Assembly: GCF_007860015.1 (NCBI RefSeq)
Contig: NZ_SJPS01000004.1
Coordinates: 689,567-753,566, forward strand
DNA: 64,000 bases
Source of the DNA: Bythopirellula polymerisocia
GTDB taxonomy: Bacteria > Planctomycetota > Planctomycetia > Pirellulales > Lacipirellulaceae
Direction: 5' to 3'
The position numbers and the translations under genes were made by a program. The notes under the pieces are model-generated. The model was not told the origin of the DNA. It saw only the letters and a program-made list of their open reading frames with translations, and searched no databases. Shown here piece by piece: positions 38,477-55,065 of the stretch (the stretch's first letter is position 1; each line of letters starts with the position of its first letter).

Positions 38477-38754
38477 TGAGTACCTCGAGAATCTTTGCCA
38501 GCGTGAAGTGCCCCCCTATAAGTACCTCGGTGCATGCTTCGCCCGAACTTCACCCTCATCGCCACTCAGCCATCGCTTGCTGGATCTCCTACAACGATTA
38601 TGCGGAATGGCTCAGAACTGCCGGCCCACACCGGGGCCAAGATCGTGGCATCCGATGTTTTGATCCACCAGCGAATCATTCCATTAGATCCATATCCATT
38701 CAGCTCCGCACCGCGCACCACATCAACTATTACCAACAGCAACGAAGCTGGTTC
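38477..38754. other. Intergenic stretch before the IS1380 remnant
   Basis: About 280 bp with no convincing gene. Open frames on both strands here have no recognisable domain and run into the transposase remnant, so they look accidental. Confidence 0.4.
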
Positions 38755-39272
38755 ATAGTCGCGGCACGTCCAACAGCTTACCGATCGTGGACCGCGGCGC
38801 GCGTCTACCAGGATTTTCGTTATCAAACCAGAAAAAGCTGGAGCCGAGATCGACGTGTCATTGGCAAGGCCGAACATCTGGCCAAGGGAGCAAAACCACG
38901 CTTTGTGTTCACCGGTTTGTCGACTGAAGATTATGAGGCAGCGACCGTTTATGAAAAATAGTATTGCGGACGCGGTAACAAGAAGAATCGCATCAAAGAG
39001 CAGCAATTGCATCTATTTGCGGACCGACGAGTACCTCCACCATGCGGGCTAAACAACTTCTACTCTGGCTTTCGAGTGTTGCTTATGTCTTGGCCAACAC
39101 GCTCCGTGAGGTGGGCTTACAGGGAACCCAATTCGCCAAGGGAGGGCAGCCTCAATTACCGTTGCGGCCAGTTGCCGAAGGCATTATTTATGTGTTCGGT
39201 ACGGGAGATAAATGGAGTGGTCGAAAACATTATCAGCCTCTTGCGGCATTTCTCAGCAGTTTTGTTGACTGA
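38755..39272 (+). pseudogene. IS1380-family transposase remnant (C-terminal third)
   Basis: Reading forward, RVYQDFRYQTRKSWSRDRR, VIGKAEHLAKGAKPRFVFTG and YEAATVYEK match the IS1380 transposase core. A TAG replaces an expected Leu codon (near 38959). The next codons give YCGRGN...NRIKEQQLHLFADR, and after a shift near 39035 the frame continues with MRAKQLLLWLSSVAYVLANTLREVGLQGTQFAKG. The N-terminal two thirds and the terminal inverted repeats are missing. A dead fragment that marks an old insertion just upstream of the sulfatase-GH16 operon. Confidence 0.8.
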
Positions 39273-39387: not shown

Positions 39388-39440
39388 GAGCCAGAGAATT
39401 ATTAGAAGGGCTCCACGGTTTAACCGTGGAGCCTTTTTTT
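39388..39440 (+). promoter_or_regulatory. Predicted GlpP-type antiterminator/terminator leader, copy D
   Basis: GAGCC (39388-39392), a 16-nt loop AGAGAATTATTAGAAG, then GGCTC (39409-39413), which can pair with GAGCC. GGCTC is also the first half of the terminator that follows, so the two hairpins exclude each other, the classic antitermination design. Loop boxes AGAGA and AGAA are shared with three other leaders near 44.3, 47.3 and 53.3 kb. The sulfatase ATG is 31 nt after the T-run. Binding by the nearby GlpP is inferred. Confidence 0.75.
39409..39440 (+). terminator. Intrinsic terminator inside leader D
   Basis: GGCTCCACGG pairs perfectly with CCGTGGAGCC (39424-39433) around TTTAA, followed by seven T. 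It lies before, not after, a gene, so it must be conditionally read through for sulfatase expression. Confidence 0.9.
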
Positions 39441-39471
39441 GTAGCTCAGACGTATTTTTTGAAAGTTAATC

Positions 39472-40878
39472 ATGTTACATCGATCACTGATCTGTTTTCT
39501 ATCACTAACTATCGTCGCTGGAGTTATTCACGCTGCAGAGCGGCCAAATTTTGTCGTAATATTTGCTGATGACTTGGGTTACGCGGACTTGGGTTGTTTC
39601 GGTGCGAAAGATATTGAAACACCTGCTATTGATCGAATGGCTCGCGAAGGGCGTCGGTTCACAGATTTCTATGTTGCTTCTCCAACATGTACTCCTTCCA
39701 GAGCCGCGCTGCTGACCGGTTGTTATCCGCTGCGCGCCGGATTTGATGTTTCAATTGCAGTTCGCAAGGATGGGAGTCGGTCCCCAAGCCGTGTTCTTTG
39801 GCCCGGATCACCTATGGGTCTCAATCCTGAAGAGGTCACTGTGGCAGAAGCACTTCAGGATGCAGGGTATGCCACTTGCATGGTCGGTAAATGGCACCTT
39901 GGAGATCAGCCGGAATTCAATCCTGTGAATCATGGGTTTGATAAATACTTTGGCGTCTTATACAGCAATGATATGTCCCCTTATGAGTATGTTCGCGGGA
40001 CTGAGCGACTCGATGAACCGCTGGATCGAGATGAGCAGCTTCAGCGGTACACCGAGGAAGCGGTCGACTTTATCCAGCGAGAACGGGATAAGCCGTTTTT
40101 TCTGTACTTAGCCCATACAATGCCCCATACGCCTTTAGGGGTGTCAGAGAAGTTTAGAGGTGTGTCCAAACGAGGCCTTTATGGGGATGTGGTTTCCGAA
40201 ATCGACTGGAGCGTCGGCAAGATATTGGAAGTCCTCCGCGAGCTGGAATTAGACGAACGAACATTGGTGGTTTTCACATCTGATAATGGCCCTTGGCTAC
40301 ACCGCGGGGAAGATGGTGGATTAGCGACTCCGCTACGCGGGGGCAAAGGAAGTACCTATGAAGGTGGGGTGAGAGTACCGTGTATCATGTGGCAGCCAAA
40401 TACCGTGCCCGCCGATTCTGTTTGCAATGAAATCTCTACTACGATGGATATTTTACCGACCTTTGTTTCGATGTCGGGGGGGGAAGTACCTACGGATCGT
40501 ACCATCGATGGTTATGACATCTCGCAGCTCGTCTTAGGAGAATCCCAGGCCGCTTCACCCTATGAATATTTGCTATACTATTTTGGCAACGAACTGCATG
40601 GTGTCCGTAGCGGTCGTTGGAAGTTGCGTGCGAAGAATAATCTTCGCAATGAAAACATCTATAATTACAGCGCTCCTAAGGATGTTTACCTCCCCGCAGC
40701 ACTTTACGATCTAGAGCGTGATCCCGGAGAGCAGAAATCAGTCCTCAAAGACCACCCCAAGATAGTCAAACGTCTTCAGGGTTATCTGGATGCAGCGAGG
40801 GCCGACTTAGGCGACTCGCTAACAGGTATTAAGCCTTCCAACATGCGGCCTATCGGACGAGTTGTGTCGGCACAGTAA
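39472..40878 (+). CDS. Secreted sulfatase (formylglycine type, C-T-P-S-R)
   Basis: A 468-residue protein with a short signal peptide (SLICFLSLTIVAGVIHA). FADDLGYADLG holds the metal-binding Asp pair. Cys73 in CTPSRAALLTG is the canonical C-x-P-x-R formylglycine site, and GKWHLGD and TSDNGPW follow. It is first in an operon with a GH16 enzyme (58 bp downstream), an arrangement suited to desulfating and then cutting a sulfated beta-glycan such as an agar-, porphyran- or carrageenan-like polymer. Transcription is predicted to depend on antitermination at leader D, which would tie it to glycerol-phosphate status. Confidence 0.93.
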   Translation: MLHRSLICFLSLTIVAGVIHAAERPNFVVIFADDLGYADLGCFGAKDIETPAIDRMAREGRRFTDFYVASPTCTPSRAALLTGCYPLRAGFDVSIAVRKDGSRSPSRVLWPGSPMGLNPEEVTVAEALQDAGYATCMVGKWHLGDQPEFNPVNHGFDKYFGVLYSNDMSPYEYVRGTERLDEPLDRDEQLQRYTEEAVDFIQRERDKPFFLYLAHTMPHTPLGVSEKFRGVSKRGLYGDVVSEIDWSVGKILEVLRELELDERTLVVFTSDNGPWLHRGEDGGLATPLRGGKGSTYEGGVRVPCIMWQPNTVPADSVCNEISTTMDILPTFVSMSGGEVPTDRTIDGYDISQLVLGESQAASPYEYLLYYFGNELHGVRSGRWKLRAKNNLRNENIYNYSAPKDVYLPAALYDLERDPGEQKSVLKDHPKIVKRLQGYLDAARADLGDSLTGIKPSNMRPIGRVVSAQ

Positions 40879-40936
40879 AGAGATTTTGCTTTTCCTAGCC
40901 TCCGTGTTCCAATAATTCAGCCCTAAGAAAGACTTC

Positions 40937-41890
40937 ATGACTACTCTCAATTGGCAAACTCGTATCGTAGTCACTTCGGTTTTATTGAATGTGCTTTTTT
41001 CAACACTGAGCCATGGCCAATCACAAGCTGCCGAAACCGTAGAATCGACTTGCGAATCTGAAGTTCTATTTTTTGACGATTTCTCCACTTCTGCTTTAGA
41101 TCGTTCGCAGTGGAATGTAGAGGTCGTGGAAAAACCGCATAATAATGAACAGCAGACTTATGTGGACTCCCCGGAGACACATTATCAATTACAGGGCAGC
41201 CAAGTCGTGGGTGCTCTAAATGGTACTCTCGTGCTACACCCCCGATTTAAGGCTGGATATAGAACTCCTGGGGGAAGAACTGTCGATTTTGTTTCCAGCC
41301 GGATCAACACCAAGGGAAAGGCAGAATTTGTCTACGGTAGTATTGAATCGAGAATAAAACTTCCCAAGGGGTCGGGAATCTGGCCAGCGTTCTGGGCACT
41401 TGGGTCTGGTCCTTGGCCGGCAACTGGAGAGATTGACATCATGGAGTGTGTGGGCGAGCCGGATTGGACTAGCGTGGCACTGCACGGTCCAGGTTACTCA
41501 GGCAATACGCCTTTGGTCGAAAAACATTTCTTTAAAAGTGACGAGGACGTAGCACACTGGCATGTCTATTCCGTCGATTGGTTACCGGCGGAACTTTTAT
41601 TCAAAGTAGATGGACATCCGGTCTACCGTGTGACTCGGAAAATGGTTGAGCAATACGGTGAGTGGGTGTTTGACAGCCCCAAGTATCTTATTCTCAATGT
41701 TGCATTAGGAGGGACTTACCCATCCAAGACGAATAATGTGAAATTGCCTTACTCAGGGATTCCGGAGTCCACGGTCGAACTAATTCAGAATGACAAAGCA
41801 AAGATGTTCGTCGATTGGGTCCGTGTAACAAAACATGTAAGTAATGCGCCAGCTAGTGATGGATCACATGCTGATTCGCTTGATAAATAG
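40937..41890 (+). CDS. Secreted glycoside hydrolase family 16 endo-beta-glucanase/galactanase
   Basis: A 317-residue protein. A signal peptide precedes ATIE-like FFDDFSTSALDRSQWNVEV. The GH16 catalytic signature E-x-D-x-x-E is GEIDIMECVG with nucleophile Glu165, Asp167 and acid/base Glu170. Conserved substrate-binding segments follow (FHVYSVDW-like WHVYSVDWLPAELLFKVDG, YLILNVALGG). GH16 enzymes cut laminarin, lichenan, agarose, porphyran or kappa-carrageenan; the regular E-I-D-I-M-E fits laminarinases but does not settle the matter. It is second in an operon with a sulfatase, which favours a sulfated substrate. It is convergent with glpF, 41 bp away. Confidence 0.92.
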   Translation: MTTLNWQTRIVVTSVLLNVLFSTLSHGQSQAAETVESTCESEVLFFDDFSTSALDRSQWNVEVVEKPHNNEQQTYVDSPETHYQLQGSQVVGALNGTLVLHPRFKAGYRTPGGRTVDFVSSRINTKGKAEFVYGSIESRIKLPKGSGIWPAFWALGSGPWPATGEIDIMECVGEPDWTSVALHGPGYSGNTPLVEKHFFKSDEDVAHWHVYSVDWLPAELLFKVDGHPVYRVTRKMVEQYGEWVFDSPKYLILNVALGGTYPSKTNNVKLPYSGIPESTVELIQNDKAKMFVDWVRVTKHVSNAPASDGSHADSLDK

Positions 41891-41931
41891 ATTTCTATTG
41901 ATCGAACTTTTACTGGTTTTGCTGGTGGACC

Positions 41932-42690
41932 TCAACTGATCTGCAAGTAGATGACGGCCGCCAAGACCGCGCCGGCAATGGGGCCCGCTACAGGTATCCA
42001 AGCATAGTCCCAATCGGAATCACGTTTCCCGGGGATCGGTAAGAATGCGTGGACGAGGCGAGGCCCCAGATCTCGCGCTGGGTTTATGGCATAGCCCGTG
42101 GTTCCCCCCAGAGATAAACCGATCGAGAGTACTAGCAATCCAACCGGTAGAGCACCTAGCGTCCCTAAGCCAATCTTCGCGCTGGGAGAATCGATTCCGG
42201 CAATGGTTGGCCCTTCGGCCAGCAAAGATGGCTCAACCGCTAATAAGACGGCCAGAACCAGAACCATGGTCCCAACGGCTTCGCTCAAGAAATTGCTAAA
42301 GTTCCGTCTAATTGCTGGGCCGGTTGAGAACGTAGCCAGCTTGGCATTGGCATCATCTGTCACAGCATAGTGATCTAGGTAGACAAGATACACCAGCACA
42401 GCACCTGCAATCGCCCCTGCCATTTGCGCCCCGAGGTAACCCGCTACATTCGCCCAGTCAAATTCACCCGCCGCGGCCAGGCCCAAGGTGACTGCCGGAT
42501 TGAGGTGGGCTCCGCTCATCGGGCCAACACACCAGACACCGACAAACACTGCCATTCCCCAGCCAAAGGTAATGACGATCCAACCGGAATGATGCCCCTT
42601 GGTTTCAGATAAGTTGACATTGGCAACAACCCCGTTGCCCAGCAGAACCAATAGCAAAGTGCCCAGAAATTCACCTAAATAAGCAACCAT
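41932..42690 (-). CDS. glpF: Aquaglyceroporin / glycerol uptake facilitator
   Basis: A 252-residue MIP-family channel with six membrane segments and both pore motifs: HLNPAVTLG and GYAINPARDLGPR. The Asp after the second NPAR is the glycerol-facilitator signature, in contrast to strict water channels. It lies 66 bp after glpD on the same strand, so the two form an operon driven from the glpD leader (copy A). It admits glycerol, which glpK at the right edge of the window would phosphorylate. Confidence 0.93.
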   Translation of the reverse strand: MVAYLGEFLGTLLLVLLGNGVVANVNLSETKGHHSGWIVITFGWGMAVFVGVWCVGPMSGAHLNPAVTLGLAAAGEFDWANVAGYLGAQMAGAIAGAVLVYLVYLDHYAVTDDANAKLATFSTGPAIRRNFSNFLSEAVGTMVLVLAVLLAVEPSLLAEGPTIAGIDSPSAKIGLGTLGALPVGLLVLSIGLSLGGTTGYAINPARDLGPRLVHAFLPIPGKRDSDWDYAWIPVAGPIAGAVLAAVIYLQIS

Positions 42691-42756
42691 CCGCGAAAGC
42701 TCCTATAGAACAAGATCAGATTCAAAGTTTGTCAAAAGAGTAGTCTGAAGACCAAG

Positions 42757-44280
42757 TCACGATTTGCTATATGTATCTTCTCGCGACAAAATACTTGGGT
42801 TTCCATTCAAACTATTATTGAAGTGGGGTGGAGGAACTTTGCCGGATTCAGCAAGCATTTCATAGTGGCTAAGTTCTCGATTCATTGCAACATCGCTCCA
42901 GCCAAGGAAGTTCCCCATCCAGTCTGCTACAATCCTGGCAATGCTCATGTGGTCTGAGTGATAATAGCGCCAACTCGTGCGTCGAATCATCACGTCATCA
43001 AGATGCACTGCCCATTCCTGGTTGCAATAGTGTTCAACTGCCGCTTCTGACACTTCGGGGGGGAGAATGCCACTCACATGAATTGAATTCGGAGTCTCTA
43101 AGAGTGGCGTTGTGGCAGTACGGCAGGGTTCGATAGATGGTCGAAGAAAATGAGCTACGGCATCCACTGTTTCCTCAGCCATTAGCCGATAAGAAGTTAG
43201 TTTGCCACCCGTTACATCCCACCATCCCGGATGACTCATCTTGATCTCGTGCCGACGAGAAATGTCCGATGGATTTCCATGCTTGTCGGCTACTAGAGGC
43301 CGCAAGCCAGCCCATGTGGAGAGGACGTCTTGGTTCGAAAGGCCGACGGCAGGAAACGCCTCGTTTACTACGTCGAGCACGTATTGTTGATCTTCAGGTT
43401 CGCAGCGAGGAGAGTCGATCGGTCCGTCGTAGTCTGTGTCGGTGGTCCCCAGTATTACACGTTCACCCCAGGGGATAGCGAAAAGAATCCTTGACCCTTC
43501 CGCAAATACTACTGCGTCCGGCACGGGGAGACGCGAACGATCGATGACCAGATGAACTCCTTTGGTAAGACGCAGAGAAGTTTTGGAGTGTGGCAGATTA
43601 TGAGACCAGGGCCCCGTCGCGTTGATGACACACTTGGCATGAATTTCATAGGACACATTTGTTGTCGTATTTTGCAATTCGCAACGCCAGATATCATTTT
43701 CTTGGTGTGCGTCGATAAAACGAACGTAATTGGTAACTGAGGCACCGTGATTACATGCCGATCGGAGGGTGTCTACTGTCAATCGCGCATCGTTGGTTAT
43801 GCCGTCAAAGTAGCGCACTGCACCGCTCAAATTCGAGGTCTGCAAACCTGGGAGAAGTTCGAGAATCTGTTTTCGATTAAGAACGGTGCTTTTCCCTAGA
43901 TTACGTCTACCGCATAGAAGATCGTAAACTTTGACACCGATCCCCAGTTTCCAGAGTGACCATGTCGATCTCTTGTGGGTGGGGAAAATGAAAGCTAAGG
44001 GATCAGAAAGATGAGGTGCGATTTTGTGGATGACCATTTTCTCGCGGCTGGCCTCGCGGACGAGTCCAATGTTGCCTTGTGCGAGATAGCGAATACCCCC
44101 ATGCAGCAGTCGACTTGATCGGCTACTTGTCCCTGATGCGAAATCCTGTTTGTCGATCACCGCAGTGGCTAACCCTCGCATCGCGGCATCCCGGGCCACG
44201 CCGGAACCAACGATCCCGCCCCCGACGACAAGCAGATCGAATTCACGATTAGAGAGATCTTTCTCGGTTGCTAAAGCCAT
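42757..44280 (-). CDS. glpD: Aerobic glycerol-3-phosphate dehydrogenase (FAD-dependent)
   Basis: A 507-residue flavoprotein that oxidises glycerol-3-phosphate to dihydroxyacetone phosphate at the membrane. The N-terminal dinucleotide fold is DLLVVGGGIVGSGVARDAAMRG, followed by the family motif SSRSSRLLHGGIRYL. The C-terminal DAO_C helical domain (about 395-490) has ERLIRR-like VMIRRTSWRYYH. Length matches bacterial GlpD. Its start lies 27 nt after the T-run of leader A, the same arrangement as the glpD leader that GlpP controls in Bacillus. It is divergent from glpP across 277 bp. Confidence 0.95.
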   Translation of the reverse strand: MALATEKDLSNREFDLLVVGGGIVGSGVARDAAMRGLATAVIDKQDFASGTSSRSSRLLHGGIRYLAQGNIGLVREASREKMVIHKIAPHLSDPLAFIFPTHKRSTWSLWKLGIGVKVYDLLCGRRNLGKSTVLNRKQILELLPGLQTSNLSGAVRYFDGITNDARLTVDTLRSACNHGASVTNYVRFIDAHQENDIWRCELQNTTTNVSYEIHAKCVINATGPWSHNLPHSKTSLRLTKGVHLVIDRSRLPVPDAVVFAEGSRILFAIPWGERVILGTTDTDYDGPIDSPRCEPEDQQYVLDVVNEAFPAVGLSNQDVLSTWAGLRPLVADKHGNPSDISRRHEIKMSHPGWWDVTGGKLTSYRLMAEETVDAVAHFLRPSIEPCRTATTPLLETPNSIHVSGILPPEVSEAAVEHYCNQEWAVHLDDVMIRRTSWRYYHSDHMSIARIVADWMGNFLGWSDVAMNRELSHYEMLAESGKVPPPHFNNSLNGNPSILSREDTYSKS

Positions 44281-44306
44281 GGGCGATATTCCAGTGATTG
44301 CGCAAT

Positions 44307-44338
44307 AAAAAAAGGCCCCGCGGTAACACCGCAGGGCC
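44307..44338 (-). terminator. Intrinsic terminator inside glpD leader A
   Basis: On the minus strand, GGCCCTGCGGT pairs with ACCGCGGGGCC over a GTT loop (11 bp, one G-T pair), followed by seven T just before glpD. It must be read through for glpD-glpF expression. Confidence 0.9.
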
Positions 44339-44358
44339 TTCTATTTTTTCTCTAGGCC
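44307..44358 (-). promoter_or_regulatory. Predicted GlpP antiterminator/terminator leader, copy A (glpD-glpF)
   Basis: On the minus strand GGCCT (44358-44354), then a 14-nt loop with AGAGA and TAGA boxes, then AGGCC (44339-44335), which overlaps the left arm of the terminator. The pairing GGCCT/AGGCC replaces GAGCC/GGCTC of copies C and D, so the arms covary while the loop boxes stay fixed. Bacillus GlpP with glycerol-3-phosphate is known to antiterminate in the glpD leader, so this copy links the element to that regulator. Confidence 0.82.
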
Positions 44359-44420
44359 ACTAAGTGCACTAACCGGCAATTGCCGAGATAGCAAATATCG
44401 AATTGTTCTTACTAGTTTAT

Positions 44421-44448
44421 ACTGTACACTTGATCGAAGTAGTGTCAA
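44421..44448 (-). promoter_or_regulatory. Putative glpD promoter
   Basis: On the minus strand a perfect TTGACA (44448-44443), a 16-bp spacer and TACAGT (44426-44421). The -10 ends 62 bp before the first arm of leader A. Confidence 0.55.
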
Positions 44449-44557
44449 TTAACTTGTTGCAGTTAATAGCAGTTACTTTATACGCTTGCCATTCGGTATT
44501 GACAGGCTTGATTGGTCGAACCGTCGCTGATTCCCGCAACTTTTCACTTCCAGTAAG

Positions 44558-45145
44558 ATGCCAAGTTCTCATCAAATAGATCGTTTTTTCACAAAGCCCG
44601 TCATACCGGTCCTCTGGGATATTGGAGCATATTCCGATGTGATTGCCTTAGCAAGTAGCGTAATTCTGCAAGGGGGGCCAATTGTAGAATTATCGAGAGC
44701 CATTGATCGCTTTGCCAATCCTCCACTCGATCATTTGCGAATCTTGGTGCATATTGATCTCGTCGCAGGTCTCGAAGCCAACGAAGCTGGACTCGAACTA
44801 TTGGCTGACATGGGGAATATTGATGGCATAGTAACGGTTCATCATCAGTTAACGAAAGCAGCAAAACGCTTGGGGCTTCTCTCGATCGTCAGAATGTTTC
44901 TCTCCGATAGTCGGGCCTTGGAACGCGGGCTAAACGTCGCTGAAAAATCGCGAGCAGATGTTGTCGAAATCTTGCCTGCGGCGGCAGCTGTCAAGGTAGC
45001 TTATGAACTCCGTTCCTGTTCCATTCCACACATTACTGGGGGCCTTTGTCGTACAGAAGTCGACATCCGAGAGGCTCTCGAAAGTGGGTGCCTGGCAGTC
45101 ACGAGCACACGTCCAGAGCTTTGGAGACTGAACGAGAAGATATAG
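44558..45145 (+). CDS. glpP: Glycerol-3-phosphate-responsive antiterminator GlpP
   Basis: A 195-residue cytosolic protein of the PF04309 family, close to the length of Bacillus GlpP. Signatures: PVIPVLWD, LVHIDLVAGLEANEAGLELL, GIVTVHH, SRALERGL, DVVEILPAAAAVKVA, and PHITGGLCRTEVDIREALESGCLAVTSTRPELW. The TIM-barrel-like family binds glycerol-3-phosphate and leader RNA to prevent termination. It sits next to glpD and between leader-bearing operons, so it is the natural candidate to act on all four leaders in this window. No such leader precedes glpP itself, so it is likely made constitutively. The phosphoesterase gene follows 50 bp downstream. Confidence 0.92.
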   Translation: MPSSHQIDRFFTKPVIPVLWDIGAYSDVIALASSVILQGGPIVELSRAIDRFANPPLDHLRILVHIDLVAGLEANEAGLELLADMGNIDGIVTVHHQLTKAAKRLGLLSIVRMFLSDSRALERGLNVAEKSRADVVEILPAAAAVKVAYELRSCSIPHITGGLCRTEVDIREALESGCLAVTSTRPELWRLNEKI

Positions 45146-45195
45146 GCGAGTATTGGTATAATAGATCAATTCGGCGTTTCTGAGGTAGTCTTGCC

Positions 45196-47127
45196 ATGTG
45201 TGTTATCAGTTCTGCTCGTGCTTTAATCCCTTTCATGCTGCCCAGCATTCAATTGGTGGTATTTCTACTCACTTGCTTTTCTACTCGGCTGGCTGTCGCT
45301 GAGGTGATTATTAGTGAGATTATGTATGATCCTCAGGGTTCGGATACTAATAAGGAATGGGTCGAACTATTTAATACCGGGTCTTCAGCGGTTGATCTCG
45401 GTGGGTGGACACTTGAGGACATACAAGACGGCAGCGTATCTTCGGTGATTCAATCCGGTGTCGTATTGTTACCGAGTCAGGCTCTCGTCCTCACTGGAGA
45501 TTCTGCGTTGTTTGATGTGAATTGGGGGCTGGGGATTAATCGCTTGCAACTTAGTTCCTTTCCGACTTTGGCCAATACTCCCTCACCAACAAATGAAATC
45601 ATCGCAATCCGCGATCATCTAGGAATCGTTCGTGACCAGGTGAACTATGACGATGAATTTGGCTGGCCTGACCTGGTAGGCTCGGACGGGGAGAGTATTT
45701 TTCTGCGGCCGAACGCTCTTTCCGCATCACAGAATGACGACGGTACAAACTGGCTTCCCTCAATGACCGGACTCTATGGCGCTTTTTTTACCAGCATGGG
45801 TGGCCTCGGAGAAAACCACGGCTCTCCCGGCTATGTGGAACGTCAAATCCAGGAACCGTTTGTTCCATCACCTGATGCCGCTTGGTCGATGGTAATTTTT
45901 CCAGATACGCAGAACTATGTGAAGAACGCCTCCCAAGTTCCAATACTGAGCGAGATGACTCAGTGGGTGAGAGACAATCGAGAATCTTGGGGCATCCAAC
46001 TGGTCTTGCAAGAAGGTGATATCGTCAATAACAACGACACAGTAACTCCAAATAGTGGAGACCAAGACAGTTCGCAACAGTGGCAACATGCCAAAGATGC
46101 TTTTTCTCTACTCGATGGGCAAGTGCCTTACATTTTTGCTACTGGCAACCATGATCACGGTTTTCTGAACACGGAAAACCGCGACACGGAGTTTAATACT
46201 TATTTTAGCTCCTCAGATAATCCTTTGGTCGACCCCACTCAAGGGGGTATTCTGAAAGGAGTCAAGGATCCAGGCGAATTGCAGAATGCGTATTACGAGT
46301 TCACCGCTCCCGACGGACGGGAAATTCTTGTCGTTAGCCTGGAGTGGGCACCGCGCCAACAGACCGTCGCCTGGGCGAATCAAATTGTTTCGCAATCCAA
46401 GTATGAGGAGCATACAACAATACTACTCACTCACGGCTATACGGATCAGGATGACACCAGATGGCAAATAGATCCCGCTACTTATCCAGCAGTTACTGAT
46501 GGGAACGATGGGGAGGATCTTTGGAACGAACTCGTCAAACTTCACGGAAATTTTGAGTTCGTATTTAGCGGTCATGTAGGTGGGGACGGCCTGGGATACC
46601 TAACCAGCAATGGCGTTGAAGGAAATCTCGTGCACCAAATCCTTTTCAACACGCAGTTCGAAGCGAATGGCGGCAGCGGTTGGATTCGTGTGTTGGAATT
46701 TCTCGATGATGGGCATACTGTGCGCGTGCGAACCTACTCTCCGCACCACGATCTGCAAAAAACTGATCTCGCCAATGCGTTCTTGATGGACATTTCCCCA
46801 ATCCCAATTTTCACTGCTGATTTCGATGGCGATGGAGATGTCGATGCTGCTGATCTGGTTAAATGGCAAGAAGCCTATGGTTTGACTTCATTGGCGGATG
46901 CAGATCAGGATGGAGATAGTGACGGAGCAGATTTCTTGGAATGGCAAAGGCAGTTCGGATCAGGAACTCCTGGCACAGAATCGCTTCGCACAGTACCAGA
47001 ACCGAATTCAATTCTACTAATCATAATTGTCGGATTTTTTCAATCGTGGTATTTTCGTTGCGTACAACAATTGACCTGCCCAGGGATTGCGATAATTTCG
47101 GACCATTTGGTTACAAATCGTCGGTAG
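45196..47127 (+). CDS. Secreted lamin-tail / metallophosphoesterase / dockerin-like protein
   Basis: A 643-residue protein. Signal peptide, then a lamin-tail domain (ISEIMYDPQGSDTNKEWVELFN, about 35-150), then a calcineurin-type phosphoesterase (about 225-535) with its metal-binding blocks: FPDTQNY, QEGDIVNNN, ATGNHDHG, LLTHGY and FSGHVGGD. Two dockerin-like calcium loops follow (DFDGDGDVDAADL and DADQDGDSDGADF), then a degenerate PEP-CTERM end (VPEPNSILL). It lies directly downstream of glpP, so it may release phosphate from an extracellular glycerophospho-compound, but the substrate is not evident. Surface attachment or sorting is expected. Confidence 0.82.
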   Translation: MCVISSARALIPFMLPSIQLVVFLLTCFSTRLAVAEVIISEIMYDPQGSDTNKEWVELFNTGSSAVDLGGWTLEDIQDGSVSSVIQSGVVLLPSQALVLTGDSALFDVNWGLGINRLQLSSFPTLANTPSPTNEIIAIRDHLGIVRDQVNYDDEFGWPDLVGSDGESIFLRPNALSASQNDDGTNWLPSMTGLYGAFFTSMGGLGENHGSPGYVERQIQEPFVPSPDAAWSMVIFPDTQNYVKNASQVPILSEMTQWVRDNRESWGIQLVLQEGDIVNNNDTVTPNSGDQDSSQQWQHAKDAFSLLDGQVPYIFATGNHDHGFLNTENRDTEFNTYFSSSDNPLVDPTQGGILKGVKDPGELQNAYYEFTAPDGREILVVSLEWAPRQQTVAWANQIVSQSKYEEHTTILLTHGYTDQDDTRWQIDPATYPAVTDGNDGEDLWNELVKLHGNFEFVFSGHVGGDGLGYLTSNGVEGNLVHQILFNTQFEANGGSGWIRVLEFLDDGHTVRVRTYSPHHDLQKTDLANAFLMDISPIPIFTADFDGDGDVDAADLVKWQEAYGLTSLADADQDGDSDGADFLEWQRQFGSGTPGTESLRTVPEPNSILLIIIVGFFQSWYFRCVQQLTCPGIAIISDHLVTNRR

Positions 47128-47243
47128 AAGGATATTTCTCCGAGAAATTCACTGGATTTACTGGTATCTGCTGGATGCTGGTAAAGGCATTTTCTTGTTC
47201 GCCCCTCAGTAAACTGAGCCGGAGGAATCAAACTCCCAAACTG

Positions 47244-47271
47244 TTGACAAGCATTCTATAGCTGTTAATAT
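47244..47271 (+). promoter_or_regulatory. Putative promoter of PEP-CTERM/GDPD block 1
   Basis: Perfect TTGACA (47244-47249), a 16-bp spacer and TAATAT (47266-47271). The -10 ends 48 bp before the first leader arm, as at the other copies. Confidence 0.55.
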
Positions 47272-47319
47272 CTGGAGATAACTTGAAAACTTAGCCTTTT
47301 GTGGGCACTAAGGTCGAGT

Positions 47320-47374
47320 GAGCCAGAGAATAATGAGAAAGGCTCCGCGAACTGTTCGCGGAGTCTTTTTTTTT
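47320..47374 (+). promoter_or_regulatory. Predicted GlpP-type antiterminator/terminator leader, copy C
   Basis: GAGCC (47320-47324), loop AGAGAATAATGAGAAA (16 nt), GGCTC (47341-47345). Loop length and boxes match copies A, B and D. The sequence before it (CGAGTGAGCCAGAGAAT) is almost the same as in copy D, showing common origin or strong constraint. Confidence 0.77.
47341..47374 (+). terminator. Intrinsic terminator inside leader C
   Basis: GGCTCCGCGAA (47341-47351) pairs with TTCGCGGAGTC (47355-47365) with one G-T pair and a 3-nt loop, followed by nine T. It precedes the block-1 genes. Confidence 0.9.
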
Positions 47375-47580
47375 GCAAACCCTTTTCAAGATAGGTTTTC
47401 TTTTCATTGTAGCGGAGAGATTAACGGTTTTTTCACAAACAGATCGTAAAATCTCCCCCAAATGGGCAGCAATTGTTCTGAACGAACACTAGTTTTAGGG
47501 CGATCAACTTATTCATAGTCACGCACATTTCTACCGATTGGCATCAAAAAGGTCCACTTGAATAACAAACGAGGAATACT

Positions 47581-50007
47581 ATGAAGCGATTACTTTTCAG
47601 CATTGCATGCAGAGTTTCCACAGCATCTTTGGCAATAGCTTGCTTTACCTCGATTCAGGTACTTCAAGTTTATGCAGTTGAAAATGCAAACATTAATGTA
47701 AGTGGCGCCGGAGCCGTTACTATTCCGGCAGGCCAATCAACGAGTGACTTTAATATCTCAGGCAATGGCGGAACTGGTGATATTCCTATTCGAATTGGTG
47801 CTAGTTCCACTGATGACGCATCGGGCGGGATCCTCATCGGATCGATCTCTGAGAATGGGAGATCTGCAAACACAACGACTGCGGGTTCGGAAACTCTTTA
47901 TGCTTCTAGTTCCACCTCGCTTGATGGATCAGGTGGATTGAATCTGATTACAAGAAGAGCGGGTGAGGACACACCCGACACAGTATTCCCGGGCGGGGCA
48001 CGATTCGACGCTAATCTCGGGGCCGGCTATTTCCCTTTCTCTGAAGGCTGGTTGGGTGGAACCGTTTCGTCCACCGCAGGATCCACCTTCAACTCCTTTA
48101 ATCTCAACGGGCTCACTTCGGCGAACATTTCGCAAAACCTCTACGGGAACGGTGACAATGTTGTGACCTTCCCGGGGGTCACCGACTCACGTCGCCAGGG
48201 CATACTATTGGCCAACCACGCGAGCGATACCAATCAGTATACGCTGGCAACTCCTACTCCAAGTGGTGATGGATTCACTATTACCACAAAGCCGAACAAC
48301 ACTAATGGCAGTGCAGGAACTAGCAACCAATCCATGTCTTTCGTTTTTATCCCACGAAATACACCAGGCGTCACATTGGGTCGGGTCAATGGCGGTAATT
48401 CGGCGCTTCCCCCTTCGACTGCCTTCCAAAGTGGCAGCGCGGTGACAATTGTTCGCGAACTCGAGGGCCAGTACCGAATGAGTATTGCTGGTCAAACACC
48501 TTCCTCGGGAACTCTGCTTGTGACTACCCATGGTGGACCTACTGGAGAAGGAACTCGCGCGAGCGACAATATGATTACTTATCAAGCATCTGGAAATGAC
48601 TGGGTAATTCTTTCACAGGATTTGGCTGGCTTAAATGGTTCGGGGCAAGATACGAACGAAAACGAATACTACTTCGATTTCGCATTCTTGCCATTTTCAG
48701 GTGGTGCTACGGGACCGGGTGCGATTCCTTCGGTCAGTTCACTCACTAATTTCAGTAAATCCCGAGTTTTTGCTTGGAATGCGAATGTAGCTGAACTTTC
48801 TGCGGGCAATAACCCTGGTGAAACTTTGACAACAGTTCCCCAAAAAACCTCAGACGTAGAAGTCACTCCTTTAGGTTTTAACCGAGGGGATAACTTCTAT
48901 GCCGTTGACGGCGCGTTCCTTGCCGCCACCGACGGCGTCATGCTTGCGTCGGTTCGTGAAGGTCTCCGCGACAACAGCTTAACTGGTGGATTCACTGAAT
49001 ATGGCCTCGCTAGCACAACGCTTTTGCGGGATAGTTGGCAAGTTGGAACAGCCACCTCAAGTGCTTCGCCCGGTGGAAGTACAGAATTTAACATCAATCA
49101 CGCAGTTGCTTTTTTTGGAGCTGATTCAGGTTTTCAAATGGGAAGCAATCAGTTGGTAAACATGACAACTAGTGAGTTGAGTTTCACACTATCCGGACTT
49201 GATCCGGAATCGAATGGTGTATTGATGGTGAATCCCAACACCAACGAAGACAATTTCTTGACTGTGACTCCCCAAGGCGGGTCGGGCACGGGTTGGGACG
49301 TTGTTCTGCTAGACAATAGTGGTGAACCCGAGCAAACGCCCGCTTCAACAACTAACGATGGATTCAACTATGTTTACTTGCCCTATGATGCCCAGAATTT
49401 AGTGGCCGGAGTTACTCAGGCAAACGGATCATTGATTAGTTCAACCAACACAGCTGGTTTTACGCTCTCTAAAGTCGGCACGGGCGAGTACAAGCTTACG
49501 ATCCCGGGGAAAAACCCAAATACTGGTATGTTACTGCTTAACTCAACGGCAGAGGGTAATGGCGATAACAGTGTCGTTTATGAGAACGACCCCGATGGAT
49601 TTAGTTTCCGCATTCTCGGCATCGATCACAAAACTGTCGACGAGATTGAAAATCAGTTCTTGCTGACAGAACCTGAGGACACCGGGTTTTCATTTGCTTA
49701 CATTGACTTCGAATCGCCACCTGTTTTGCAGATGATAAACGATGCAGATTTTGATCAAGATGGCGACGTCGATGGCAAGGACTTCTTAACTTGGCAACGA
49801 GGATTTGGTACAGGATCGACGCTTGCTGAAGGAGATGCCAACGGCAATGGGAGTGTCGGTCCCGAGGACCTTGCCATTTGGAAGACTCAATATGGAAATA
49901 CGCCACTCGCAGGTGCGGCAACCGCTGTTCCGGAACCCTCCTCAGCAGCAGTCGTTCTGCTGTTGAGCACGATGATTGTAAGTTTTCGCAAACCGAAGGT
50001 GAATTAG
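47581..50007 (+). CDS. Large PEP-CTERM secreted protein with dockerin-like repeats
   Basis: An 808-residue protein. Signal peptide (ASLAIACFTSIQVLQVYA), then a long beta-rich region full of Gly, Asn, Ser and Thr. Within it two related segments are visible (YTLATPTPSGDGFTITT and FLTVTPQGGSGTGWDVVL), each near an LxGxxGTL/GVLMVN motif, suggesting internal duplication. Two calcium loops (DFDQDGDVDGKDF and DANGNGSVGPEDL) precede the PEP-CTERM sorting signal VPEPSS, a hydrophobic helix and basic residues. It should be exported and processed by an exosortase encoded elsewhere. No enzymatic motif is recognised. First gene after leader C. Confidence 0.82.
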   Translation: MKRLLFSIACRVSTASLAIACFTSIQVLQVYAVENANINVSGAGAVTIPAGQSTSDFNISGNGGTGDIPIRIGASSTDDASGGILIGSISENGRSANTTTAGSETLYASSSTSLDGSGGLNLITRRAGEDTPDTVFPGGARFDANLGAGYFPFSEGWLGGTVSSTAGSTFNSFNLNGLTSANISQNLYGNGDNVVTFPGVTDSRRQGILLANHASDTNQYTLATPTPSGDGFTITTKPNNTNGSAGTSNQSMSFVFIPRNTPGVTLGRVNGGNSALPPSTAFQSGSAVTIVRELEGQYRMSIAGQTPSSGTLLVTTHGGPTGEGTRASDNMITYQASGNDWVILSQDLAGLNGSGQDTNENEYYFDFAFLPFSGGATGPGAIPSVSSLTNFSKSRVFAWNANVAELSAGNNPGETLTTVPQKTSDVEVTPLGFNRGDNFYAVDGAFLAATDGVMLASVREGLRDNSLTGGFTEYGLASTTLLRDSWQVGTATSSASPGGSTEFNINHAVAFFGADSGFQMGSNQLVNMTTSELSFTLSGLDPESNGVLMVNPNTNEDNFLTVTPQGGSGTGWDVVLLDNSGEPEQTPASTTNDGFNYVYLPYDAQNLVAGVTQANGSLISSTNTAGFTLSKVGTGEYKLTIPGKNPNTGMLLLNSTAEGNGDNSVVYENDPDGFSFRILGIDHKTVDEIENQFLLTEPEDTGFSFAYIDFESPPVLQMINDADFDQDGDVDGKDFLTWQRGFGTGSTLAEGDANGNGSVGPEDLAIWKTQYGNTPLAGAATAVPEPSSAAVVLLLSTMIVSFRKPKVN

Positions 50008-50066
50008 AGAAACCGGTTGAGGAAGACTTCCCGTTTTGCTAAGGATGCAAAGTTAAGGAATTCTCT

Positions 50067-51074
50067 ATGAACAAACTGAAATCTAATTTGGAAGTTCGAA
50101 CGTTTGACCAACGGAGTTTTGGTTTTACGTTGGTCGAACTCTTGGTAGTGATTGCGATTATCGGTGTTCTGGTCGCGCTGTTGTTGCCGGCTATTCAGGC
50201 GGCTCGCGAGTCTGCCAGGCGCAGTCAATGTACAAGTCAAATGAAACAGATTGGCTTGGCCTGCCTGATGTATGAGGGCCAAAAAAAAGAATTACCTCCT
50301 GCATACACCTCTGGAGGAGTTAATGTCACCAATGACCAGGCGGCATTTTACAGTCACAACCTGATTACTTTTTTGCTGCCTTTTATCGAGCAGCAGAATA
50401 TAGCAGATCTCTATAATTTTAAGCAGAATTGGAACGAACAACGCAAGAAGAATCCCAATGGGATGACTAACTTCGAGGTCTCTCGCAGCTACCCATTGTC
50501 GTTGATGCAGTGCCCGTCTGTTGGTAGCCGAGAAGAAGATGTCGTCTCGGATTATTCGGTAAGCGCATACATATCGGCAGCTCAAACAACGGGTTTTGCC
50601 CTTCAAGAACTTGAACAACGCTTGAATCGATTAGCTCCGGAAGACCAGTGGGCGAGCATTCTAAACAACTACGATCCCACAAGGACCTATTATAAGCCGG
50701 TCAGATTAGCACAAATAAGTGATGGAACCTCCAATTCCTTCATGCTTTTTGAGATCGGTGGACGCCCCACGGTCTACAATCGATCGCATATTGTAAATGG
50801 ACAAACAAACTCATACGGAAGGTTCTGGGCGAATAGCGAAAACTGGTTTGCACTGCATGGAAACTACACGGATGAATCGGGAAATGACAAGAATAATTGT
50901 GACGGCCAGATGATCAATTGCACGAATCTGGAGGAAATTTATTCTTTTCATCCCGGCGGGGCTAATTTTACTTATGGTGATGGATCGGTCCACTTTATTT
51001 CCGAGGACTTGGATATTGTTACTTTCGCAGCTCTGCACAGTCGTGCCGGTGGCGAGGTGGTGGAGTTGCCATAG
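50067..51074 (+). CDS. DUF1559 prepilin-like protein
   Basis: A 335-residue protein. The N terminus has the type IV prepilin pattern [22 protein letters not shown] with a processing site before Phe and Glu at +5. The body is the planctomycete DUF1559 domain, ending with the H-x9-DG signature in [17 protein letters not shown]. Function of this very large family is unknown; pilin-like assembly or surface display is presumed. It is 59 bp after the PEP-CTERM gene and shares its operon. A paralogue occurs at 60361 in the second block. Confidence 0.92.
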
Positions 51075-51167
51075 TAAGAGTGCCGTTTTTATTTGTTTGT
51101 GTCGGAATGTGCGTTAGAATGGAACTTTGTACTGACTTCTTTGAACTTTACTTGGGAGGTAACGCTG

Positions 51168-52019
51168 ATGAAAAATTTTATGATTGTACTATTATTGGTC
51201 TTTAGTTTTATGCTAATGGCCAACCACTCACAGGCAGCTCTTTTGATTAACGAAATTGAAGTAAATACAGAGAATGACGGCCCAAATTCTAGTGATAGTG
51301 GAAAAGAGTTCTTTGAGATCCTTAGCGACTTGGGTTCAGAGAGCCTCTCGGGTTTGACTTTTCTCGTGATTGAAGGAGACGGTGGTGGGTCCGGCACCAT
51401 CGACAAAGCGTTGAGTCTTGACGGTTTCTCAACGGGCACTAATGGACTCTTCCTTTGGAGGGATGATTCAGCAGTCTTGTTGCCTGCTCCAGATGCGGCG
51501 ACTGTAATCAATGTAGCCGATTTCGATCCCGATCTTGAAAATGGTTCAAATACATTCGCCCTTGTCAGAGGCTTTACCGGCCTAGAAGGCGATGACTTGG
51601 ACACCGACGATGATGGAACAATCGATGTTGCGTTGCCCTGGTCATCTGTCCTTGACGCAGTATCAGCTAAGGACTCAGGGAGTTCCGACAACGGCTATGC
51701 AGCTGCGATGCTTGCTGGAGGGATTGATTTCCCAAATATTTCCTTCGCAGCAGACTCCTTGATCCGTCTTACTACGGGGCAATGGATTGCTGCTGACATC
51801 GACGAGGCAAATAGTGATTACCCTGGGCCCTACCCCCTTGATGACACTCAGGCCATCTTTTCCGATGGCACAGCACTTGTCCCCTCGACGGCTCTAACCT
51901 TCAATACCCTCAGCCCTGGCAGCGCCAATCCAGCTTTGGTTCCTGAGCCTGCGAGCTTGGTATTAATGTGTTTAAGTGGGTTGTTGGCGGTCGCAGGTTT
52001 AAGGCGTCGACAATCATAG
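51168..52019 (+). CDS. PEP-CTERM protein, lamin-tail-like
   Basis: 283 residues from the ATG at 51168, supported by GGGAGG upstream. Signal peptide (FMIVLLLVFSFMLMANHSQA). The mature start LLINEIEVNTENDGPNSSDSGKEFFEI resembles lamin-tail/nuclease-associated domains, and the rest is acidic and beta-rich. It ends with VPEPASLVLMCLSGLLAVAGLRRR, a textbook PEP-CTERM signal. No catalytic residues are evident. It lies between the DUF1559 and glycerophosphodiesterase genes of block 1 and ends before a strong hairpin. Confidence 0.82.
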   Translation: MKNFMIVLLLVFSFMLMANHSQAALLINEIEVNTENDGPNSSDSGKEFFEILSDLGSESLSGLTFLVIEGDGGGSGTIDKALSLDGFSTGTNGLFLWRDDSAVLLPAPDAATVINVADFDPDLENGSNTFALVRGFTGLEGDDLDTDDDGTIDVALPWSSVLDAVSAKDSGSSDNGYAAAMLAGGIDFPNISFAADSLIRLTTGQWIAADIDEANSDYPGPYPLDDTQAIFSDGTALVPSTALTFNTLSPGSANPALVPEPASLVLMCLSGLLAVAGLRRRQS

Positions 52020-52087
52020 TCAAGGCCGTCGAGGCCAGATTAGACTTTTTTAGGATGCACTCTCAAGAGTCGCGTTATGTATCAATC

Positions 52088-52118
52088 CACCCCTCCCTGG
52101 GCATTTCAGGGAGGGGTG
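52088..52118 (+). terminator. 12-bp GC-rich hairpin after PEP-CTERM gene
   Basis: CACCCCTCCCTG pairs with CAGGGAGGGGTG around a 7-nt loop. A T-rich but not pure T stretch follows. It may partly terminate or stabilise transcripts upstream of the interrupted glycerophosphodiesterase gene. Confidence 0.5.
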
Positions 52119-52187
52119 TTGTATATTGAGTTTTCTTCTCCCAATCTCAAGCTACTTAGTTACCATTTCACTGGGAATTGATTTAGT

Positions 52188-53120
52188 ATGCCTGTTTCTC
52201 CTAGCCGTGCTTTTCGCATGAGAATTTTCGTTGTTGTCGGTCTTTTTTGGGTCTGCCAACTCTTCTGCCTTGGGACTTCGGTTTACGCCCAACTTCTAGT
52301 AGCACATCGAGGAGCATCTGCTGATGCTCCAGAAAATACGCTCAGTTCATTTCAACTCGCTTGGGAAGAAGGAGCCGACGCCATCGAAGGAGACTTTTAT
52401 CTTACGTCCGACAACCAGATCGTCTGCATCCACGATGACACCACAGAACGTGTCAGCGGCGTGGATTTGGATGTTGCTAGCGCCACACTTGAAGAACTGC
52501 GTAAACTGGACGTGGGCAGTTGGAAAGAACGCAAGTATATCAATGAGCGAATTCCCACTCTTTAGGAGGTTATGGATACAATTCCGCCGGAGAAGAAGTT
52601 TTTTATCGAGATCAAGTGTGGCCCAGAAATTGTTCCCCATTTAAAATGCGTCTTACTCGACTCCAGTGTTCCTCTGGAAAACTTGAAGATTATTTCATTT
52701 GATGAAGAGGTAATTCGGGTAGCGAAGCAAGACCTGCCAGAAATCGAAGCCTTTTGGATCGTCCGTTTCAAAGAAGTTAAGAATCAAAACAGACTGACTC
52801 CAGAAGTAGACGAAATAATTGCGATCGCGTCACGCATAGGCGCAGATGGGCTGGACTTACAGGCCCGAACCGAAGTCCTCGATGCGGGGTTTGTAATGCG
52901 ATGTCGATACGCGGGCTTTGGTCTTCATACGTGGGTTGTTGATGATCCTGCCTTGGCAAAGCAACTGGGAGGACTAGGATTCGAGTCGATTACGACCAAT
53001 CGCCCCGGATTCTTGCGAAAGTCGCTTTCGGCACAGGAGGGAACCGTTCCAGTGACGTCGGAATCGCTTCCTCTCCGAAACAATCCTTCCATTTCGCTTG
53101 AGAATGCTTCGACAAGGTAA
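52188..53120 (+). pseudogene. Glycerophosphodiester phosphodiesterase interrupted by an in-frame TAG
   Basis: Two pieces in the same frame, 52188-52565 and 52572-53120. The first has a signal peptide and the catalytic half: [20 protein letters not shown] and CIHDD. The second continues with FFIEIKCGPEIVPHL and GLHTWVVDDP, as in the intact paralogue at 61479. The stop sits after ERIPTL, where the paralogue has Gln (PTLQEVL), so CAG to TAG is the simplest explanation. The TAG overlaps AGGAGG (52564-52569), and an ATG follows two bases later, too close for normal initiation. Either a young pseudogene or a product split into two chains. Confidence 0.8.
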
Positions 53121-53239
53121 GTCATCATGTCTTTTACTAACCGGAGCATCCTTGGCTGCTCTCTCGATAGGTGTGAGAGTGTGGAAACTGAGAAAAACTG
53201 GTATTCAGCCCTTTTTTTCACCCAATACGCCCAGAATAA

Positions 53240-53266
53240 TTGACACGGAGATCCCCTTTCTATTAA
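53240..53266 (+). promoter_or_regulatory. Putative promoter of block 2
   Basis: Perfect TTGACA (53240-53245) with TATTAA (53261-53266) at a slightly short 15-bp spacing. The -10 ends 50 bp before the first arm of leader B. Confidence 0.45.
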
Positions 53267-53316
53267 GCTGAGGAGTAGTAGAAAACAGATTTGTAGTTTA
53301 TTGTGGCTTAACCGCC

Positions 53317-53369
53317 GGCCTAGAGATATCGAGAAAGGCCCCACCCGGTTTCGGGAGGGGTCTTTTTTT
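53317..53369 (+). promoter_or_regulatory. Predicted GlpP-type antiterminator/terminator leader, copy B
   Basis: GGCCT (53317-53321), a loop with AGAGA and GAGAA boxes, AGGCC (53336-53340). Arms as in the glpD copy A, and 16 nt between GGCC and GGCC as in all copies. It stands upstream of the AraC remnant and of the long block that ends in glpK. Confidence 0.75.
53337..53369 (+). terminator. Intrinsic terminator inside leader B
   Basis: GGCCCCACCCG (53337-53347) pairs with CGGGAGGGGTC (53352-53362), with one A-A mismatch and one G-T pair, followed by seven T. Confidence 0.85.
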
Positions 53370-53480: not shown

Positions 53481-53885
53481 ATGACTAAGGATGCCCCAGA
53501 TTTCGATTGGTTTCTGGAGAAGCTCCTGGCGACTCAGACTGGCATTCAAGCCAAGGACAAACTCGTCAGAGAAGTCGCAGTTGTGATTTGGAGCAATATA
53601 CATCGTTCGATTGACGTTAATGCGATCGTGCGAGAGATACCAGCGACTCGTCGAACCCTGGAGCGACGTTTTCGGGATCAGTTAGGACTCACGATTTGCG
53701 AGGTTGTTGCTATTGCCTGATTTGAGTTAGCAAAATGGCTCTTAACAGAAACTTCATTGCCAATCCATATAGTAGCAAGACAAGCTGGGTATGCTTCTAG
53801 CGATTGGATGGGCAAAGTGATTCGCCAAAATTTGGGGATGACCCCTAGCAACTATCGACTCAAGAGCAGAGAACGACAAAACTAA
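53481..53885 (+). pseudogene. AraC/XylR-type regulator fragment with in-frame TGA
   Basis: Only the C-terminal DNA-binding part remains. The first helix-turn-helix is IDVNAIVREIPATRRTLERRFRDQLG; a TGA (53718-53720) follows EVVAIA, and the same frame continues as FELAKWLLTET, LPIHIVARQAGYASSDWMG and GMTPSNYR to TAA at 53885. In intact relatives the position of the stop is an Arg (RxxxAKxLL), so CGA to TGA is likely. The usual N-terminal ligand domain of about 250 residues is absent and no ribosome site is seen. A dead regulator sitting between leader B and the block-2 genes. Confidence 0.8.
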
Positions 53886-54147
53886 GATGCATTGAGGTCC
53901 ATTGAATGGACTGTAACCCTTTAATTGGACTGGAAATTTCGGAAAGGAGAGACTTTAGAGGTCCGATCACTACTTTGTCAGGCATTGCGAAATCGACAAG
54001 TTTTTTGGGTTTGTCGCATCAGTCTGATGAAGCATTTGTAGTAGCTGACAAAAATTAACTATATGGGGCCGACTTTTCCTGAGTGTGCGCTCGTGTGCAC
54101 ACGTCTGTATCGGCTCTAAGACCCTGTACCCATTTGGGAGGAGACTA
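53886..54147. other. Intergenic stretch before block-2 PEP-CTERM genes
   Basis: 262 bp with no gene. A possible TGTGCAC-containing palindrome-like stretch (near 54082-54100) is the only feature noticed. Confidence 0.35.
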
Positions 54148-54909: not shown

Positions 54910-55065
54910 AGGAGTTGATTTACAGATAGCTCGAATCGATCCGGCCTGCCTCATCGAGAATGATGAGGCAGCCGGGTGGATCGGTCTAGCGGCTTATTAC
55001 AATGTTTTGTTGACAGACAGAGAATTGGACCAAGAGGAATCGAGCTTCGAATCCTCTGGCTGAGA

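Follow-up and report, generated by a model that had tools for sequence, protein, structure and literature searches.

A 64,000-nucleotide (nt) stretch of the genome of the planctomycete Bythopirellula polymerisocia (contig NZ_SJPS01000004.1, positions 689,567 to 753,566; hereafter the window) contains four copies of a leader element whose build suggests transcription attenuation, together with a gene for a predicted glycerol-3-phosphate responsive antiterminator, GlpP (44558-45145, plus strand; PF04309 at 130.8 bits, cut-off 27). The glpP gene is divergent from glpD, which encodes glycerol-3-phosphate dehydrogenase (42757-44280, minus; DAO and DAO_C domains), and from glpF, which encodes an aquaglyceroporin-type channel of the MIP family (41932-42690, minus; PF00230). 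One of the four elements, leader 2 (44307-44358, minus), lies between glpP and glpD. An earlier sequence-only reading of this DNA had placed glpP beside glpD with one of the four leaders in front of the latter, and both statements hold. The window GlpP had no NCBIfam match; relatives of known structure in the PDB are 3kts and 1vkf, which we take to be Listeria and Thermotoga proteins. Planctomycete GlpPs mostly read (T/S)VHH where these relatives read STR and TIK (alignment A3), a stretch that might touch the ligand or the RNA.

The other three elements stand before mixed targets or genes outside the glp set. Leader 1 (39388-39440, plus) precedes a sulfatase gene (39472-40878, plus; PF00884) and a GH16 hydrolase gene behind it (40937-41890, plus; PF00722). 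Leader 3 (47320-47374, plus) precedes a gene for an 808-residue exported protein (47581-50007, plus), followed by one for a DUF1559 pseudopilin-like protein recognised by its domain match (50067-51074, plus). The 808-residue protein has a PEP-like C terminus by eye and no hidden Markov model (HMM) match above cut-off, and a protein 44% identical to it is encoded behind the same type of element in Adhaeretor mobilis, whose strain HG15A2 carries glpP and two elements. Leader 4 (53317-53369, plus) is followed by a remnant with in-frame stops (53481-53880), from its sequence presumably an AraC-type regulator, which separates the leader from its likely target. The first intact gene past leader 4 encodes a PEP-CTERM protein (54085-54909, plus; PF07589 at 22.8 bits, cut-off 20.7), the coding start of which is probably slightly downstream, and then comes a gene for an exported protein with a GDPD domain (54976-56160, plus; PF03009, 140.9 bits).

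All four leaders are present where the sequence-only reading had put them, and they share one build. Each contains a 5-bp hairpin, with the arms GAGCC/GGCTC in leaders 1 and 3 and GGCCT/AGGCC in leaders 2 and 4. The loop carries AGAGA at its left and, at its right, TAGAA (leaders 1 and 2) or GAGAA (leaders 3 and 4). The 3' arm of this small hairpin is reused as the 5' arm of a U-tailed terminator, whose T runs of 7, 7, 9 and 7 agree with the 7-9 noted earlier. A uniform spacing of 16 nt had also been claimed; it applies between the GAGCC/GGCTC or GGCC/GGCC cores, and the loops between the 5-bp arms are 16 nt long in one pair (leaders 1 and 3) and 14 nt long in the other (leaders 2 and 4). When a 26-base degenerate pattern drawn from the copies was run with three mismatches, it matched precisely these four leaders in the window, against a mean of 0.02 matches (maximum 1) in 100 shuffles. 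A looser pattern told us nothing when applied genome-wide: it matched 32 times forward and 34 times in reverse, and a reversed control gave 44 and 52. The free fold of all four leaders is the terminator, at -24.5 to -27.1 kcal/mol, and enforcing the small hairpin gives -13.6 to -16.9 kcal/mol. We infer that the small hairpin can form first, yet needs help to beat the terminator.

No Rfam family reached its gathering score in the window, and Rfam searches of six further loci (L076, L185, L176, L109, L112 and L117) returned one tRNA only. Promoter-like sites, each a consensus match alone, lie upstream of leader 2 (TTGACA-16-TACAGT, 44421-44448, minus; shuffles average 0.5) and leader 3 (TTGACA-16-TAATAT, 47244-47271, plus; shuffles average 0.9); none was found upstream of leaders 1 and 4. 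Transcription start at the foot of the hairpin was considered and dropped, the -10-like box ending 62 nt upstream for leader 2 and 48 nt upstream for leader 3. A second patch (TAGTGCACT or TTATGCATG, with a TGCA core) is seen in several planctomycete glpD leaders, usually 6-7 nt upstream of the hairpin; it is found in the window at 44360-44380 (minus) and in L097, L098, L099, L100, L101, the L078 element, L196 and L199.

Hairpin conservation and the link to glpP

Homologous leaders from other genomes were collected with covariance models. The first model, R1, was built from three window copies and recovered the held-out leader 4 at 33.8 bits (E value 8.4e-6). The second, R2, was built from 24 chosen elements (alignment A4), after six R1 matches without the small hairpin (L086, L087, L088, L093, L094 and L105) had been removed by eye; one of these, L086, nevertheless scores 49.3 bits with R2. 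In the 6.14-Mb window genome, R2 at E≤0.01 found the four leaders and two antisense matches on their palindromes, 38 of 1239 first-look candidates being scored; the family-wide run scored 132.

Both hairpins covary in the homologous leaders, as the sequence-only reading had noted for the arms of the four copies. For the terminator, 95.1% of the cells in A4 are paired, 7 of 11 pairs show double changes, and none of 500 shuffles did as well on any measure. For the small hairpin, 92.5% of the cells are paired, and none of 500 shuffles equalled it in cells paired, in cells changed on both sides or in score. In an alignment-free comparison, a small hairpin of at least 5 bp can form in 24/24 elements, whereas permuting the arms among elements never gave 24 in 20000 trials (mean 17.1, maximum 22), and the summed stem length was reached by 1 of 20000. 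Sequence comparison shows two hairpins that exclude each other, a feature conserved in all 24 chosen elements and, by eye, in eight of nine held-out R2 matches. Across genera the element keeps its AGAGA...GAGAA boxes and 5' arm, which lie outside the terminator, with changes in the arms themselves.

GlpP is patchily distributed, PF04309 exceeding its cut-off in 1/294 sampled genomes of the phylum, 8/146 of the order and 11/43 of the family. The element follows this pattern. At E≤2e-5, R1 gave 12 matches in 7 of the 145 other order genomes, and six of these seven encode GlpP; in the seventh (G332) a terminator was matched on both strands. Conversely, six of the seven other GlpP-encoding genomes of the order set were found by R1 (hypergeometric P of 4e-9, which, like the Fisher values below, takes no account of relatedness). 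At 47 bits or more, R2 gave 25 matches in the 43 family genomes, 24 in genomes with GlpP and one in G452, so that 11/11 genomes with GlpP had a match versus 1/32 without (Fisher, 2e-9). Both cut-offs were chosen after the scores had been seen, and 16 of the 25 matches are training elements. The nine held-out matches include eight with a perfect 5-bp small hairpin, judged by eye at a place where the model has no pairs; the exception is L086. The expectation that matches would fall mainly in genomes with PF04309 was thus largely borne out in both sets.

The glpD leaders allow a narrower comparison. The element stands before glpD in 10 of the 11 GlpP-encoding family genomes. Eight family genomes without detected GlpP have a close glpD (identity 59-79%), and in six of them the roughly 350 nt upstream of that gene contain no element (Fisher, 0.006); the other two are the incomplete genomes G437, with an intact element, and G444, with a decayed one. 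This comparison omits five genomes without GlpP in which GlpD has a best match of 36-40% identity (G388, G392, G408, G412 and G449) and keeps two with a stop inside glpD (G404 and G357). The six include G435, a 96% complete genome of the same genus with a glpD 79% identical. They also include G450, in which a broken copy lies about 0.5 kb before glpD (L203, 945-990), with the boxes kept and the right arm and T run lost. As expected, this copy has the appearance that decay after loss of GlpP would leave.

We also examined 14 glpF and glpD leaders from seven GlpP loci of Firmicutes (two Macrococcus, three Bacillus, Heyndrickxia and an unclassified member of the Bacillales). A regular-expression scan of the fetched loci was noisy and served only for picking candidates. 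A terminator-first scan of the non-planctomycete loci missed the AT-rich leaders, and direct reading took its place. The layout is common to both groups: in 14/14 Firmicutes leaders the right arm of a hairpin overlaps the left arm of the terminator. In 10/14 the loop has the form RGAGA...GAG(A) on stems of 4-7 bp with unrelated arms, as found by a script that favoured such loops, and the four Macrococcus leaders have weaker loops. One Heyndrickxia loop, TAGAGAATTTGAGAA, is nearly identical to the planctomycete loop. R1 matches in L108, L111 and L113 proved on reading to be generic terminators.

Genes behind the element

Across loci, the element precedes glpD, often divergently from glpP. A gene for a HAD-IIA phosphatase followed by glpD stands behind the element in L104 and, from translations only, in L106 and L079. 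In L082 the first gene encodes a glpT-like transporter (TIGR00712, 414 bits, under its cut-off of 632.55); the best named families for this protein are glycerol-3-phosphate transporters, all under their cut-offs. PMC9604022 gives glpT as a GlpP target in B. subtilis. A GDPD gene follows the L084 element, a DUF1559 gene the L083 element, and DUF1559 and then GDPD genes the L081 element; in G424 the contig ends behind the element before any target gene.

Outside glpD operons, 5 of 17 first targets are PEP-CTERM proteins over the HMM cut-off (the window gene at 54085, L176, L179, L182 and L184), and six more are PEP-CTERM-like by eye or just under the cut-off (the window gene at 47581, a relative in L076, L080, L089, L091 and L177), for a soft total of 11/17. 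Among the latter, the L091 and L177 targets are lamin-tail proteins and the L089 target is a matrixin-like protease. The window genome holds at least 150 PEP-CTERM matches (150 of 334 candidates were scored), against which the share among targets looks high in an informal comparison; a binomial calculation used a guessed background of 0.05. The sequence-only reading had named glp, GDPD, PEP-CTERM and sulfatase genes as those to look for behind further copies; among the targets read, glpD, GDPD and PEP-CTERM genes recur, and a sulfatase was seen in this window only.

Several neighbouring features deserve mention. In L185 a 66.6-bit element on the strand opposite glpP (9564-9618, plus) lies directly past the 3' end of that gene, in addition to a second one before glpD; the corresponding L176 element is followed by a PEP-CTERM gene. 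Directly behind the window glpP is a gene for a protein with lamin-tail and metallophosphoesterase domain matches (45196-47127, plus). Lamin-tail proteins recur at 51093-52019 and in L091 and L177; one of these proteins has a PEP-CTERM end, and two are encoded behind elements in other genomes. A GDPD-like gene at 52188-53120 looks interrupted, because the domain match ends at position 88 of 244 within a short open reading frame (ORF) and the next ORF has no Pfam match. An ORF for a transposase fragment (38434-38961; PF13701, 41.7 bits) lies upstream of leader 1.

Proposed mechanism and alternatives

Taken together, these data suggest that each of the four elements works as a transcription attenuator, with the GlpP encoded beside glpD as its reader, a reading to which we assign a probability of roughly 0.85. 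With no ligand present, downstream pairing of the small hairpin's 3' arm would build the strong terminator, and RNA polymerase would halt before the gene. When glycerol-3-phosphate accumulates, ligand-bound GlpP would grip the purine loop (AGAGA...GAGAA) and so keep the weak 5-bp hairpin in place; the terminator could then not be completed and the operon would be transcribed. The binding of GlpP to the loop, the response to the ligand, the read-through and the physiological role are all inferred in this scheme.

Part of the evidence weighs against this proposal. The double-change pairs of the small hairpin were matched by 33/500 shuffles and its further pair types by 500/500, the latter partly because the GGCCT rows stand one column off in A4. 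At looser thresholds, R1 (E≤0.05) matches 43/146 order genomes and R2 (E≤1e-4) 16/43 family genomes, so widely that the models must also catch plain terminators. Apart from the elements named here, the weak matches inspected were plain terminators or partial matches. Among GlpP-less genomes with R2 matches of 35-39 bits, those in G408 and G444 (L160) are plain terminators and that in G347 looks like one, and G443 (83% complete) has a partial match with the left box only. G391 encodes GlpP and has no R1 match, its glpP lying at a contig end; G424 encodes GlpP and has no element before its glpD. No glpP was detected in G437 (79% complete), which has an intact element before glpD, in G452 (86%), which carries an element, or in G444 (72%) and G356 (84%), which have decayed-looking glpD leaders. 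Genome incompleteness could explain the elements without a detected glpP (G452, G437, G444, G356 and G443). Where the element stands outside glpD operons, about 15 of the 17 first targets do not belong to the classical glp set. In Firmicutes, the loop motif alone reached a shuffle p below 0.05 in 2/14 leaders (combined, 0.001), in a 180-nt scan that left the L113 glpD leader outside and whose best site in the L111 glpF region was not the leader, and R2 matched none of the Firmicutes leaders at E≤0.02. Finally, no element was recognised in five loci with GlpP relatives (L110, L114, L115, L116 and L118), where R2 gave nothing at E≤0.02 and R1 gave weak matches of 15.8-17.8 bits in four; the sequence before the glp genes was read directly in L114 and L115 only.

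Could GlpP read the element in another way, mainly blocking the terminator or protecting the mRNA, with the small hairpin as a docking site only? PMC7430163 reports an additional stabilising effect of GlpP on glpD mRNA in B. subtilis, PMC9604022 words the mechanism as terminator disruption, and the small-hairpin state is some 10-12 kcal/mol weaker than the terminator. Against it, the right arm of the small hairpin is also the left arm of the terminator in the 24 chosen elements, with complementarity kept despite changes in the arms, and 14/14 Firmicutes leaders show this overlap too, as expected of a mutually exclusive switch; we give this version an outside chance. It is less probable still that another RNA-binding protein reads the element, or glycerol-3-phosphate itself as a riboswitch ligand, with glpP a mere frequent neighbour. 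The elements in a few incomplete genomes without detected glpP would fit such a reader. Against it, the presence of the element tracks that of glpP in both the family set (43 genomes) and the order set (146 genomes), and glpD has no element before it in six of eight relatives that lack GlpP. A loop of 14-17 nt on about 5 bp is also small for a metabolite-binding RNA.

That the elements are ordinary terminators or a mobile repeat, with an incidental match of the 5' arm, we consider very improbable. Three of the leaders could also end transcripts arriving from upstream: each has an ORF on its own strand before it, at a distance of 193 nt for leader 3, 197 nt for leader 4 and 427 nt for leader 1, the last of these ORFs being the transposase fragment. 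Low-scoring R1 and R2 matches also fall on plain terminators, on either strand. Yet leader 2 is placed between the divergent glpP and glpD with no same-strand ORF of at least 100 codons nearby upstream, the boxes and 5' arm are conserved outside the terminator, and the copies do not agree in the DNA around the element, as those of a recent repeat would.

If GlpP antitermination is the correct reading, the switched genes cover oxidation and uptake of glycerol-3-phosphate (glpD, glpF), the breakdown of phosphodiesters (GDPD) and a group of exported proteins, some of them of the PEP-CTERM type; such a set points to cells that scavenge glycerophosphodiesters at their surface. A wider proposal, for which we see even odds, is that the RGAGA-N-GAGA GlpP hairpin is common to planctomycetes and Firmicutes and that one planctomycete family co-opted it for a surface programme, in which glycerol-3-phosphate, itself a product of phosphodiester breakdown, would turn on glpD along with exported phosphodiesterases and proteins sorted through PEP-CTERM. 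To our knowledge, few regulons have been worked out in the planctomycete phylum. The element offers a comparative RNA signature for the GlpP family, a testable glycerol-3-phosphate regulon in Planctomycetota and a clue to the timing of PEP-CTERM surface protein production.

Comparison with known antitermination systems

The sequence-only reading had regarded the element as undescribed. We found no description of a planctomycete GlpP leader or of a GlpP RNA family in the open-licence papers searched, and 'glp' and 'glycerol' are absent from the main text of three RNA-discovery papers (PMC2965389, PMC11109978 and PMC8632094). The kind of element is known, however: GlpP antitermination of the glpD, glpFK and glpT leaders is established in B. 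subtilis, according to PMC9604022 and PMC7430163.

The planctomycete system resembles the B. subtilis type in its PF04309 protein, the adjoining glp genes and the terminator in the leader; in the glp leaders from relatives of Bacillus (the comparison did not extend to that of B. subtilis), a short hairpin likewise overlaps the terminator, in 10/14 with a similar purine-rich loop. It differs in its planctomycete host and in targets that extend to sulfatase, GDPD, DUF1559 and PEP-CTERM-like genes. The planctomycete arms are G+C-rich and of other sequence, and AAGTTAAT, found just upstream in 14/14 Firmicutes leaders, is absent from the planctomycete elements, leader 1 having GTTAATAAG. The place of AAGTTAAT in the Firmicutes leaders is comparable to that of the second planctomycete patch.

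More distant parallels are found in other protein families. In the BglG/SacY/LicT system, the protein stabilises a hairpin, the ribonucleic antiterminator (RAT), that is exclusive with a terminator, as described for LicT. The protein family is another one, and the RAT hairpin has two internal bulges, which are not seen here (the window was not searched for PRD proteins). The ANTAR systems likewise act by RNA antitermination at leader terminators. ANTAR antiterminators consist of two small hexaloop hairpins and are read by an ANTAR domain, whereas the planctomycete element has one hairpin with a loop of 14-17 nt and a GlpP protein. Since the Firmicutes glp leaders have the same layout, and 10/14 a loop that may be related, we class the element with the GlpP antiterminator, as one of its variants; judged by these sequence comparisons, it is most likely a planctomycete form of that known device, with a wider regulon.

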